Part shown: in pieces, positions 37,949-49,789 of the stretch
Numbering within the stretch: the first letter of the stretch is position 1
Layout: every line of letters begins with the position of its first letter
Assembly (NCBI RefSeq): GCF_946479755.1
Contig: NZ_CAMLHC010000019.1
Location: forward strand, 92,695-156,694
DNA length: 64,000 nucleotides
Reading direction: 5' to 3'
Origin: an uncultured Chitinophaga sp.
GTDB taxonomy: Bacteria > Bacteroidota > Bacteroidia > Chitinophagales > Chitinophagaceae
Notes under the pieces: model-generated
The model's input: only the letters and a program-made list of their open reading frames with translations
The model's database searches: none
Told to the model about the DNA's origin: nothing
Program-made: the position numbers and the translations under genes

Positions 37949-38962
37949 ATGTCAAAGGAAAACACTGTAGCCCACCTGCACGCGCGGTGGCAGCATCTGC
38001 CGAAGCCACACTACCCTTTTCCCGATTTTATCCATCCTGGCTATCAGCAACAAAGGGAAGAATATTACGCTATGATTGACCGGGAATATACTTTTCACAG
38101 CGAAGCAGCACGCACAAAACACAAACAGCATCATTTCACTGACCTCGCCGCCCGCGGCCTGCCTTTCTTGAACTCGCTGGCAGAACTGCGTCCTGTGGCC
38201 AATTTCACAGCTAACGGTGCTATGATAGACGACTACCTGGACCGCTGTTCCCTCGGGGAAATGGAGGAGATTCAACAACGCATTACCGCGTTGCTGACCG
38301 GAGAGGATACGCGCGAACCCGTGGGTAATGACATTTACCGCCCGTGGTGGGCACTGCGGCAGGAAGCCCTTGCCTGCGACATGCCGGAACGGCACTATCG
38401 TAAATTCATCGCTTCTATACATGATATGCTGGTAGGGTACCGTGATGAAAGACCCTATAACAGGCCCGATACCCCTCCTCCATTTGAAGTCTATACGCTC
38501 ATCAGGGAACAAACAGCCGGGGGGCTGCCTTTTTGTAAATATGCCGCCATGCAAAAAACGTATCGCCGGTTACCGGACGATGTCCTGGAACATCCCCACA
38601 TCCTGCGGCTGCATACGCTCTGTTCCCGCATGATCGGTATTCACAATGATATTATTTCCCTGCCGAAAGAACTGGGCCGGGAAGGAGACGTTATGAACCT
38701 GGTAAAGGTAATGCAGCATGAACACAAGGTACCGCTGGAAGAGGCGTACACCATGGCGCTGGCCGTGCATGACAGCTACCTGAAAGAATTTATGCTGCTG
38801 CATCAGCAGCTTCCTTCTTTTGGCGGCTGGCAGGAAATGGCCTATAGCTATGTGCGCGACCTGGGCGTCATGGTGGCGGGCGTCTACGCCTGGCACACCC
38901 ACGACACCACCCGCTACGTACCGGGTGGTTATGTAGAAGGCGAATTTATCAGCCGGCACTGA
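37949..38962 (+). CDS. class I terpene synthase (TS1)
   Basis: 337 residues, all-alpha class I terpene cyclase. First metal-binding motif D94-D-Y-L-D98, pyrophosphate-sensing arginine Arg186 in LIREQTAGG, NSE motif N233-D-I-I-S-L-P-K-E241, and the closing Arg322-Tyr323 pair (TTRYVPGG). All key residues of an active cyclase are present. It would convert a prenyl diphosphate (FPP or GGPP) into a cyclic hydrocarbon or alcohol in the cytoplasm; the product cannot be predicted. Three related genes lie 8-11 kb downstream. Converges with the SulP gene, with three nt between stops. Confidence 0.93.
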   Translation: MSKENTVAHLHARWQHLPKPHYPFPDFIHPGYQQQREEYYAMIDREYTFHSEAARTKHKQHHFTDLAARGLPFLNSLAELRPVANFTANGAMIDDYLDRCSLGEMEEIQQRITALLTGEDTREPVGNDIYRPWWALRQEALACDMPERHYRKFIASIHDMLVGYRDERPYNRPDTPPPFEVYTLIREQTAGGLPFCKYAAMQKTYRRLPDDVLEHPHILRLHTLCSRMIGIHNDIISLPKELGREGDVMNLVKVMQHEHKVPLEEAYTMALAVHDSYLKEFMLLHQQLPSFGGWQEMAYSYVRDLGVMVAGVYAWHTHDTTRYVPGGYVEGEFISRH

Positions 38963-46590: not shown

Positions 46591-47589
46591 ATGAATACGG
46601 TGATAACTTCTGTACTTTCCCAGTTCCACTACCCTTTTCCCATGCTTAAAAATCCATTTGCCGGCATAATGCAGGAGATGACCGAACAGCATTGGATAGA
46701 CGGCGAGTACCTGGCACTTTATCAAAACGACCCGCACACCAGGAAAAAATACAAAATGACCCGGACAGCGCATATCGCTTCCCAATGGTTTCCGACAGCC
46801 AGCGCAGAGCGACTGAAGCCGGTATGCAGACTGATGCTATGGACGCTTTATAACGATGACCGGTGCGAGGAATGTAACCTACAGGAACTATACCATGTCC
46901 GGGACCAGTCGCTGGCCATCCTGAAAGGAACAGCCACTCTCAACGATACCGACATCCCCCTCGCCGGCTTGTTGTTAACGCTCAGAGAAGAACTGCTGCA
47001 GTTTCTCCCTGAAGCATCTATGCAGCGGTTCATCGGCGGCCTTCAAAAGTATTTTGACGGCCTCCGGCAGGAGCTCTACTACAAAGCCCAAAAAGAGTTT
47101 CCTTCTGTAGAAGAATGCCTGGCGATCCGCGAAGATTCGCTTTGTCTCTACCCCTTCCTGGAACTGCTGGACCTTGAAACGGAAGTGATACTTCCTGAAT
47201 TCATCCATCAGCACGATACTATAAAACGCCTGAAAGCGCTGGCCGTCCGCATGATGATATGTTTCAACGAAGTCCAGTCAGTGCTGAAAGACGAAGCTAC
47301 CGGCGCTGTTTACTACAATGTAGTAAAAGCCATTCAGCACAGCCGGAACTGCTCACTGGAGGCCGCCTGTTTAGAGGCGCTGCATATCCATAATGAATAT
47401 CTGCGGGAGTTTCAATACCTGCAGGATTTTTTACCGGATTTCGGCACCTGGCAGGACGCCGTAACAAACAGGGTCCATTATATCAGTATGACATTAAACG
47501 GATGGAAGTCCATTTCCTCTACGCTCGACAGATATAATTCCCTGCAGGGATTTCCCGATGTGCAAACAGTAAAACAGTCTTTAGGCTGA
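46591..47589 (+). CDS. class I terpene synthase-like protein with altered NSE motif (TS2)
   Basis: 332 residues of the same family as its neighbours. First acidic motif N88-D-D-R-C-E-E94, pyrophosphate sensor Arg180 in LAIREDS, and Arg314-Tyr315 near the end. The second metal motif reads N226-E-V-Q-S-V-L-K-D234, so the usual Asp at position two is Glu and the final Glu is Asp. Size and overall pattern are intact. It may have changed metal binding, specificity or lost activity. First gene of a three-gene operon; next gene starts after 78 nt. Confidence 0.88.
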   Translation: MNTVITSVLSQFHYPFPMLKNPFAGIMQEMTEQHWIDGEYLALYQNDPHTRKKYKMTRTAHIASQWFPTASAERLKPVCRLMLWTLYNDDRCEECNLQELYHVRDQSLAILKGTATLNDTDIPLAGLLLTLREELLQFLPEASMQRFIGGLQKYFDGLRQELYYKAQKEFPSVEECLAIREDSLCLYPFLELLDLETEVILPEFIHQHDTIKRLKALAVRMMICFNEVQSVLKDEATGAVYYNVVKAIQHSRNCSLEAACLEALHIHNEYLREFQYLQDFLPDFGTWQDAVTNRVHYISMTLNGWKSISSTLDRYNSLQGFPDVQTVKQSLG

Positions 47590-47667
47590 GGAAATTCAGT
47601 CATTCCTCCAGCAAACCGGAACTACTTACCATAAAAACTTTCCATCACTTCAAACCCAACACCGTAT

Positions 47668-48684
47668 ATGAATAAAGAATTTAATGTGCCCAAGCCGGTA
47701 TATCCATGGACAACCCTCCAAAGCCCTTTCGCCGGTACCCTCAATGAAGAAGAAACCAATTGGTACGACCAGGACTACCAGTTCCTGTCAAAAGACGCGA
47801 TGGCCAGGTATAAAAAAATGCGTTTAATCGATGTAGGCCCCTATATGGTACCAGCTGCCACTGAAAAGAACAGGGTGCTCCACGCTACACGTTTCGCCAT
47901 TTATATGACAGTAACGGATGACTATGTGGAGCTTTTACCGGTAAAGGAAATAGCGGCCTTCAGAGACCGGATTTTTGAAGTCATGATGGGAGATGATCCC
48001 CGGCCGGAAGAAAAAGGAATACTACGGCAAATGCAAGCCAACAGGAAAGAATGGATCGCACTGGGCATGCCCGACTTCTGGCTGGAGCGGATCGCTAAAA
48101 ACTATAAGTATCGCTTTGTTACAGACGGCATCATGGAAGAATCGCCCTATAAAATCAGCAAGGACATTCCTCCCATACCGCTCTTTCACTTAATCCGCGC
48201 CAATTCCATCGGTATGATCCCATTTGTGGACCTTGTCTGTCCCACAACGGGTTTTGCCTTACCCGATCCTATTTATAAGCATACCGTCATCCAGCGTATC
48301 ATCATGCTGCAGTCCATCATCGTGGCGCTTCAAAACGATTTCGCTACTATCGGTAAAGAGCTGGCCATAGAATCAGAGATTTTCAATATCATCACATTAC
48401 TGCAGCATCACCACAAACTATCTTTTGATGAAGCCTGTGCCGAAGGCATGCGAATTCACGATGAGTTTGTACACGAATTTGTAACGCTATCGAACCACCT
48501 GCCGGATTTCAGTCCTTACCAAAAAGAGACGGAGGAATTTATTTACTACATCAAACAAATGATCAGCGGTCTGAATGACTGGTACTATAAAAGCGGGACA
48601 AAACGGTATGCACCTGATGGATTTGCGGTACCGCCTAACGGGAAAGGCGAGACGGCCGACAGGATAGAAATCAGGCACATCTAG
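47668..48684 (+). CDS. class I terpene synthase (TS3)
   Basis: 338 residues. N-terminal VYPWTTLQSPFAG, first metal motif D84-D-Y-V-E88, sensor Arg177 in FHLIRANS, NSE motif N223-D-F-A-T-I-G-K-E231 with the allowed Thr for Ser, and Arg313-Tyr314. All catalytic elements are present, so an active cyclase is expected, acting on FPP or GGPP in the cytoplasm. Middle gene of the operon; only seven nt lie between its stop and the first candidate start of TS4. Confidence 0.93.
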   Translation: MNKEFNVPKPVYPWTTLQSPFAGTLNEEETNWYDQDYQFLSKDAMARYKKMRLIDVGPYMVPAATEKNRVLHATRFAIYMTVTDDYVELLPVKEIAAFRDRIFEVMMGDDPRPEEKGILRQMQANRKEWIALGMPDFWLERIAKNYKYRFVTDGIMEESPYKISKDIPPIPLFHLIRANSIGMIPFVDLVCPTTGFALPDPIYKHTVIQRIIMLQSIIVALQNDFATIGKELAIESEIFNIITLLQHHHKLSFDEACAEGMRIHDEFVHEFVTLSNHLPDFSPYQKETEEFIYYIKQMISGLNDWYYKSGTKRYAPDGFAVPPNGKGETADRIEIRHI

Positions 48685-48691
48685 AGCCACC

Positions 48692-49726
48692 ATGTATATT
48701 CACCAATATTACTGTAAAACTATGATGATACAGGAAGCAATTAACCCAAGAGACTATCTGCCGTTAAACTACTATCCATGGCCCAACCTTGTCAATCCCC
48801 ATCTTGAACAAATGGGCAGGGACATGGAGTCGTGGATCGATAATGACTATCATTTCCTGACACCGGAACAAATAGCGAAGTACAAAAAAATGCGGCTACA
48901 TGCGTGTACTGCCTGTATGTGGCCTGACTTAACGTATGAACAAACGATTCCCTGCAACAGGTTCATGCTTCAGTATGTTGTGCTCGACGATCAGCTGGAA
49001 GATTTATCGCTGGAAGAAAAACAACAACAGCGTGCCCGCTGTATGGAAATTTTGAACGGCGCTCCCCCCTTGCCGGAAGAAAACGCCATCTATCAACACC
49101 TGGCGCTCATCAGGGACGAATTCCGCGCATTTATGCCTGAAATATGGATGAAACGTTTCATCCGGTACTTTTACCTGACGTTCAGATACGGGATTGAGGT
49201 AGAACACTCCTACAAGGCTGCCAATCAGCCCCCGCCCTCTTTTGCGGTATATAAGGCTATCCGTGAATATGCTGTCCTGATGTACCCATACCTGGTTTTG
49301 GGAGAGATTGAATCAGGCCTGGTTCTGCCCGATCATATTGTCGACCACTGCGTCATTCAACGTATGATGACACTGATGGTCAGAATTATAGTATGGCAGA
49401 ACGATATCCACTCCCTGCCCAAGGAGCTGGCCAAAGGGACTGAAGTTTTTAATGTCGTTTTTGTGCTTCAGCGACAATACGGCCTGTCACTGGAGGATGC
49501 CTGCAAGGAAACATTACGCATCCACAATGAGGACCTTGAAGAGCTGCTTACCATACACAGGGAGTACCGGGAGTTTGGAGAATACCAGGAGCATGTAGAC
49601 AAATTCGTCTACTATTTTGGACTTGGTGTCCAGGGAGTAAACACCTTCTATGTACAGGAAACCGAAAGGTATCTGCCCGGAGGAAAAGGTTTTGCCTGGC
49701 CAGAAAAGACGAATAGCGCCAGTTAG
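48692..49726 (+). CDS. class I terpene synthase (TS4)
   Basis: 344 residues from the first ATG; starts at 48722 or 48725 (MMIQEAIN) are equally possible and give an N terminus closer to TS3. First metal motif D99-D-Q-L-E-D104, sensor Arg191 in KAIREYA, a canonical NSE motif N237-D-I-H-S-L-P-K-E245, and Arg326-Tyr327. Expected active cyclase. Last gene of the tandem; a perfect hairpin follows 25 nt after the stop. No tailoring enzyme follows; the next gene is a metallophosphoesterase with no obvious link. Confidence 0.93.
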   Translation: MYIHQYYCKTMMIQEAINPRDYLPLNYYPWPNLVNPHLEQMGRDMESWIDNDYHFLTPEQIAKYKKMRLHACTACMWPDLTYEQTIPCNRFMLQYVVLDDQLEDLSLEEKQQQRARCMEILNGAPPLPEENAIYQHLALIRDEFRAFMPEIWMKRFIRYFYLTFRYGIEVEHSYKAANQPPPSFAVYKAIREYAVLMYPYLVLGEIESGLVLPDHIVDHCVIQRMMTLMVRIIVWQNDIHSLPKELAKGTEVFNVVFVLQRQYGLSLEDACKETLRIHNEDLEELLTIHREYREFGEYQEHVDKFVYYFGLGVQGVNTFYVQETERYLPGGKGFAWPEKTNSAS

Positions 49727-49751: not shown

Positions 49752-49789
49752 ATCGGCGTCCTGATTGCTCCGGTAACCAGGACGCCGAT
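49752..49789 (-). terminator. hairpin after the terpene synthase operon
   Basis: Perfect 12-bp stem ATCGGCGTCCTG (49752-49763) / CAGGACGCCGAT (49778-49789). On the plus strand, the direction of the operon, no T-run follows; on the minus strand the stem is followed by eight T. It looks like a terminator for leftward transcription, yet no leftward gene lies to its right. Confidence 0.5.

Follow-up and report, generated by a model that had tools for sequence, protein, structure and literature searches.

The usual assay of a bacterial terpene synthase is done on a single gene. We analysed a stretch of 64,000 nucleotides (nt) from an uncultured Chitinophaga sp. (contig NZ_CAMLHC010000019.1, positions 92,695 to 156,694; the window in the following), in which three genes encoding class I terpene synthases, TS1, TS2 and TS3, form a tandem array. 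The closest solved structure is the (+)-T-muurolol synthase of Roseiflexus castenholzii (PDB 9hqd), which ranks first among solved structures for the TS1 profile and model and, by sequence, also for TS3; it has the Pfam family, fold and motifs of TS1 but only ~25% identity to it, and to our knowledge it does not depend on a companion synthase. The wanjudiene, chryseodiene and polytrichastrene synthases (PMC7383580, PMC8518897) are class I enzymes of Chryseobacterium, a genus that bears such arrays, and were assayed singly; arrays are not mentioned in the accessible parts of these accounts. Single assays were also reported for the gamma-cadinene synthase of Chitinophaga pinensis (PMC5082573), for the 18-hydroxydolabelladiene synthase (PMC5588592) and for the chryseojoostene synthase, which was stated to lie outside any biosynthetic gene cluster (PMC12535395). 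Chitinophaga japonensis has at least 11 class I synthases, assayed one by one, of which two were inactive and two were not expressed (PMC12723471); the species has relatives of TS1 (P0034/P0035) and TS2 (P0125). Three Chryseobacterium members of a 22-enzyme survey gave unidentified diterpenes (two) or no product (one) (PMC7192455), and in a review of terpene synthase catalysis the word 'heterodimer' is absent and 'tandem' appears a single time, referring to two residues (PMC10563020).

Our comparison suggests that the trio of the window is one instance of a recombining array of Bacteroidota, in which TS1 is a shared companion that the partner synthases need for their function, a reading to which we assign a probability of roughly 0.55. 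At the level of sequence the underlying genomic pattern, i.e. one constant synthase with exchangeable partners, is real and well supported. The features of the window are collected in Table 1.

Table 1. Synthase genes and associated features of the window (positions count from its first letter)
Feature	Position	Strand	Description	Evidence
TS1	46591-47589	+	332 amino acids (aa), class I terpene synthase, constant leader	Open reading frame, PF19086 92 bits
TS1-TS2 intergenic gap	47590-47667	+	78 nt	
TS2	47668-48684	+	338 aa, class I terpene synthase, exchangeable partner, family f5	Open reading frame, PF19086 86.2 bits
TS3	48692-49726	+	344 aa as listed, exchangeable partner, family f2	Open reading frame, PF19086 109.9 bits
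TS0	37949-38962	+	337 aa, class I terpene synthase, 7.6 kb upstream of the trio	PF19086 99 bits
Hairpin, 15 pairs	49752-49789	unassigned	25 nt past the TS3 stop; T-run on the - strand	

Profiles were built for TS1 (A2), TS3 (A3) and TS2 (A4) and used to survey related genomes. TS1 was recovered from 19 of 79 Chitinophaga genomes (21 genes, E-value < 1e-170) and from 35 of 118 Chryseobacterium genomes, a sample from a larger group (49 matches, E-value ≤ 1e-120). Together with three genes of one Sinomicrobium genome this gave 72 TS1 loci (21 from Chitinophaga and 48 from Chryseobacterium); the 49th Chryseobacterium match, which is shortened and contains two stops, lies inside locus L124 and has no locus of its own. 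A further synthase, complete or as a remnant, is found within 400 nt of TS1 in 67 of the 72 loci. The arrays show 28 compositions of one to eight units, remnants counted, and the composition TS1-TS2-TS3 recurs in only three of the 72 loci besides the window. The trio had been taken for three diverged copies; it is better described as a constant companion, TS1, with TS2 and TS3 as exchangeable members. That it might be a common known cluster holds for the first adjective, as the genome counts of the two genera show, and not for the second: we found no paper describing these arrays, with most of the subscription literature lying outside the search, so that absence from the literature is not proven.

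TS1 comes first in the co-directional arrays, with L128 and L180 as exceptions, while TS1-partner pairs are divergent in L112 (a TS1-TS2 pair, in a genome that is probably that of C. japonensis) and L116, and convergent in L113. Seven full-length synthases lie in a row in L128 (genome G155), and the longest runs found here, each with five to seven synthases, full-length or in pieces, are those of the Chryseobacterium loci L128, L133, L134 and L146. When the array proteins and the four synthases of the window were clustered at a distance of 0.47 (184 proteins; matches of at least 280 aa and > 250 bits), 15 groups were obtained, one of which is TS1. A phylum-wide survey, in which at most five candidates per genome were scored so that the count is a lower bound, recovered TS1 from at least three of 395 genomes: the centre genome itself and two Chryseobacterium genomes that were already known. 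Linkage of TS1 and TS3 is no more than suggested for Belliella, Parapedobacter and Taibaiella.

The tandem arrangement goes beyond what chance would give. We compared 30 Chitinophaga genomes, counting PF19086 genes (E-value ≤ 1e-15) as tandem when their starts lay within 2.6 kb. In the 23 TS1-negative genomes none of 84 such genes was tandem (four pairs were 4-9 kb apart), in line with the earlier statement that terpene synthase genes usually occur singly, and in the seven TS1-positive genomes 17 of 56 were tandem, all in eight arrays that contain TS1. In a check of eight genomes that were reached via TS2 loci, and are hence not independent of the finding, 11 of 13 TS1 genes adjoin a synthase and 17 of 60 other synthases are adjacent to one. 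One tandem pair of this check lies outside a TS1 array (G003:C41:40572-42149), on a contig whose TS1 array is ~32 kb away.

The occurrence of the partners follows that of TS1 at the level of genomes. With E-value thresholds of 1e-90 to 1e-130, a gene of the TS2/TS3 class was found in 19 of 19 TS1-positive versus 0 of 60 TS1-negative Chitinophaga genomes, and in 33 of 35 TS1-positive versus 0 of 83 TS1-negative Chryseobacterium genomes; the exceptions are G107 and G147, the latter of which has a more distant f4 partner below the cut. The partner genes number 100, of which 86 lie within 8 kb of TS1 and the remaining 14 all occur in TS1-positive genomes. In G063 and G081 TS1 is alone, and TS3 is placed on a different contig or at a distance of 0.68 Mb. 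Relatives of TS2 (72-93% identical) were found at 14 loci in a scan of genome contigs from Chitinophaga, Chryseobacterium and Sinomicrobium; a TS1 homologue adjoins TS2 in eight of these, in tandem, divergent or reversed order, and in the other six TS2 is the sole synthase within the 10-kb flanks. Five genomes reached via TS2 loci, two of which were new to the survey, all contain TS1, including the four in which the TS2 of the locus is alone. As far as these genomes and thresholds go, TS1 thus nearly always lies beside a partner and partners occur only in genomes that hold TS1; the two appear to be co-inherited as would be expected of a heteromeric pair, with the caveat of linkage that is discussed below.

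The partners are exchanged while TS1 stays. Among pairs of TS1 that are ≥ 80% identical, the next partner was the same in 236 of 985 comparisons ('none' and 'fragment' being counted as states here and on the tree). On a maximum-likelihood tree built from 73 TS1 proteins, the label of the next partner changed at least 32 times, where the possible minimum is 10 and shuffled labels gave a mean of 42.6 changes and as few as 32 in none of 200 shuffles; the labels therefore cluster and yet change often. Copies with 86-90% identity to the window's TS2 occur in Chitinophaga L118 and in Chryseobacterium L124, L138, L153, L154 and L162, where the TS1s share only 57-58% with the TS1 of the window. Similarly, the TS3 of L114 shares 89-91% identity with copies from Chryseobacterium, and the TS1s that go with these share 59-61% with the TS1 of L114. 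From these comparisons the partners appear to have been swapped, permuted and inverted around a TS1 that was retained. Loss from the trio does occur, as L114 keeps a TS2 remnant of 44 aa between TS1 and TS3, which, at 39 bits, is hidden in the locus annotation because matches below 60 bits were ignored.

In the window itself, open reading frames, PF19086 scores and motifs agree with the original prediction of three class I synthases arranged head to tail (46591-49726). All of TS0 to TS3 score above the curated cut-off of Terpene_syn_C_2 (PF19086; 23.7 bits). The motifs follow in the same order: the Asp-rich motif (DDRCE in TS1, DDYVE in TS2 and DDQLE in TS3), the sensor Arg (positions 180, 177 and 191), the NSE motif (NEVQSVLKD, NDFATIGKE and NDIHSLPKE) and the RY pair (positions 314-315, 313-314 and 326-327). 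The NSE-type triad is indeed carried by each of them, that of TS1 being a variant in which the last ligand is Asp and not Glu. The gap of 7 nt between TS2 and TS3 applies to the frames as listed. The first 11 residues of TS3 probably do not belong to the protein, which would start at the ATG at 48725 and count ~333 aa: M12 is invariant in the 14-row family alignment, and L175 and L178, the two nearest loci, have match-to-match gaps of 39 and 44 nt, so the true gap is about 40 nt. Identities are 34% (TS1-TS3), 35% (TS2-TS3) and 27% (TS0-TS2). The same trio, with a TS0 homologue, is present in Chitinophaga eiseniae DSM 22224 (L001; L178), and a second genome (L175) also carries the trio. Between the window and L178 the ratio of nonsynonymous to synonymous substitution rates is ~0.063 for TS1, ~0.026 for TS2 and ~0.017 for TS3, indicating purifying selection. 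The closest TS1 relative, among the best 120 of 161 from a protein search, is 92% identical and belongs to Chitinophaga oryzae. The AlphaFold2 model of TS3 has a predicted local distance difference test (pLDDT) score of 83.7. The named NCBIfam equivalogs (isoafricanol synthase, epi-isozizaene synthase etc.) gave 45-74 bits for TS0-TS3 with cut-offs of ≥ 400; scores this far under the cut-offs speak against these equivalogs as well as an encapsulin cargo cyclase (family 2).

The NSE motif follows the pattern (N/D)xxx(S/T)xxx(E/D), of which the Asp ending is a variant. This ending is a hallmark of TS1, with the family signature F-N-E-V-Q-S-x-x-K-D-E-A-T: the third ligand is Asp (Asp234 in the window) in all 121 aligned rows and in all 73 TS1s of the arrays, that of the window included; it is Glu in 106 of 111 partners, and 29 other synthases have Glu (25), Asp (3) or Lys (1), so that Asp marks TS1 without being unique to it. 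(The motif alignments of TS1, TS2 and TS3 contain sequences > 300 aa, in 121, 16 and 54 rows, respectively, window included.) The AlphaFold2 model of TS1 (pLDDT 90.2) has the alpha-helical class I fold, and its best Foldseek match is the T-muurolol synthase (template-modelling score 0.82/0.93 to 9hqd_B). Judged by sequence and predicted model, TS1 is a well-formed synthase that carries one change specific to its family, and since every catalytic motif is kept it is probably an active enzyme. The idea of a dead subunit was rejected on the same ground, the motifs being intact in all aligned rows.

The C-terminal or internal TS1 fragments inside arrays L134, L146 and L151 are read by us as eroded extra copies. 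A distant paralogue (362-364 bits), not counted as TS1, occurs in L110 (9468-10427), 1.9 kb from a convergent TS3, and in L111 (9726-10685), where it is alone. A divergent TS1 subgroup (L169, L170 and L192, the latter in G588:C16; 529-538 bits) may work alone, as the two cases with wide flanks have no synthase neighbour. Among the partners the metal-binding motifs are altered in some families: Gly replaces the last acidic residue of the Asp-rich motif in f3 (19 members) and f8 (4) and the Ser of the NSE motif in f6 (5), and four f4 members carry ED, NS and K changes. Such conserved and possibly impaired partners would fit a subunit role as well as decay.

How is this pattern to be explained? 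The original prediction had suggested joint function for the three cyclases, and linkage, partner exchange and co-occurrence point the same way. A need of the partners for TS1 is the simplest reason, since the partners were not found without TS1 while other synthases of these genera live singly. The main rival holds that TS1 and its partners are independent synthases whose separate products act as a mixture, e.g. a volatile blend, with TS1 making a core compound, the partners adding variety and no enzyme needing another. It would account for the class I motifs that all members keep in most families and for the co-transfer of arrays as units, and wanjudiene is a major volatile emitted by C. wanjuense (PMC7383580); it predicts neither that all 143 TS1-negative genomes examined lack genes of the TS2/TS3 class nor the near absence of tandem arrangement among the other synthases of these genera, and we regard it as doubtful. 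Several points weigh against a dependence on TS1. Its support comes from sequence comparison, and the thresholds of the co-occurrence counts are our own; these counts are descriptive, as related genomes were counted separately and are not independent. Co-occurrence results partly from linkage: TS1 lies close to 86 of the 100 partner genes, and for 12 of the other 14 the genome contains a linked array as well, which leaves only G063 and G081 free of this confounder; the TS3 of G081, moreover, lies 1.9 kb from the distant TS1 paralogue. Five of the 72 TS1 loci (L108, L109, L169, L170 and L181) have no synthase neighbour, and in G107, which has TS1, no gene of the TS2/TS3 class passes the threshold. 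The distances among TS1s correlate with those among the partners (Mantel r 0.61 for f5, 0.86 for f2, 0.65 for f3 and 0.36 for f4), and hence the arrays also travel as units. Finally, some Chryseobacterium synthases, which may or may not be array members, yielded diterpenes when expressed singly (PMC7383580, PMC7192455).

A role of TS1 that is tied to its position and not to its biochemistry, in which the head of the array stays because it carries the promoter or shared DNA for recombination, would agree with its first place in co-directional arrays and with the DNA upstream of TS1, which is alike among many Chryseobacterium arrays. Such a purely positional role is made less likely by the persistence of inverted pairs (L112, L116, L113) and of unlinked partners, the latter only in TS1-positive genomes, and the TS1 protein is itself under purifying selection; we consider it unlikely. 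Still further down we rank the idea that the array is merely left over from an old tandem duplication, its members having been lost differentially and no longer acting together: all members are homologous and L114 retains its TS2 remnant, but the permuted orders with at least 28 compositions, the presence in two genera of the same TS2 and TS3 following strongly diverged TS1s and the strong purifying selection make it very improbable.

Dependence on TS1, the reading that we prefer, could take a strict form, in which TS2, TS3 and their relatives would work properly only with TS1, as a heteromer or in a two-enzyme relay, and TS1 would be the shared obligate partner of them all; this we put forward tentatively. 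On the preferred reading in general, one TS1 would serve several partners, and extra TS1 copies in some arrays would have been reduced to fragments. Class I synthases homodimerise through a surface that might also be used here: most likely TS1 would pair physically with whichever partner is present and support its activity or steer its product. Alternatively, TS1 might supply a pre-processed prenyl diphosphate or intermediate. Physical partnership is slightly preferred by us to such a relay, at little better than even weight; redundant extra TS1 copies, several partners per TS1 and action in trans would be allowed by both. Plant prenyl diphosphate synthases have a class I-type fold. Their heteromers, in which the product is set by the partner subunit, offer a functional analogy (PMC11974751), with the difference that they are prenyltransferases with a non-catalytic small subunit whereas TS1 is a cyclase homologue that keeps its motifs. 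The analogy for a relay is found in pathways of a methyltransferase and a terpene synthase (prekantenol pyrophosphate; PMC12929941), in which one enzyme prepares the diphosphate and the synthase finishes it; TS1, in contrast, is a synthase homologue and not a methyltransferase.

The enzymes belong to a known family; the logic of the array is apparently a new variant. If the arrays share a companion enzyme, single-gene assays could miss an activity or yield an incomplete product, and the inactive and unexpressed enzymes of C. japonensis, with the pair of L112 in its probable genome, are of interest in this respect. In the strict form the arrays would constitute a combinatorial bacterial terpene system of one constant synthase with exchangeable ones, and in some cases inactivity in a single assay would reflect the missing TS1. 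The arrays can be seen as a natural experiment in which cyclases are combined with a constant one, useful for genome mining and combinatorial biosynthesis.

TS0 lies outside the tandem array of the window and may be a displaced array member, since an f9 homologue follows TS3 at 531 nt in L114. The published active-site residues are I66, A87, G90, A91, A192 and M308 for CpPS and T86 and V191 for CwWS (PMC7383580, PMC8518897); of the wanjudiene/polytrichastrene synthase positions TS0 has T87, G90, A91 and M308, but L66 and G192. The C. wanjuense proteins P0085 (TS1-like) and P0154 (TS3-like) differ around the published positions, which leaves either of them unsupported as the wanjudiene synthase.

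The neighbouring genes scanned in the window, encoding a Rce1-like CAAX protease, a RibD_C protein, RidA-like and SCO4226-like proteins, a metallophosphatase and one protein without family, are not terpene tailoring genes. No recurring non-synthase neighbour was found within 6 kb of the TS1 loci, the largest cluster being present in nine of 72, all from Chryseobacterium; a terpene cluster with a recurring tailoring or prenyltransferase gene was rejected for this reason. The Bacteroidetes promoter consensus matched 0 of 73 sequences upstream of TS1 and 0 of 64 TS1-partner gaps, which is uninformative, and three sites in the window versus 1.7 expected, none of them by the array. Terminator-like sites numbered eight in 4.1 kb versus 4.9 ± 2.6 in shuffled sequences, so the class is weak; the stem at 49752-49789 is the longest of them and possibly marks the end of the transcription unit.

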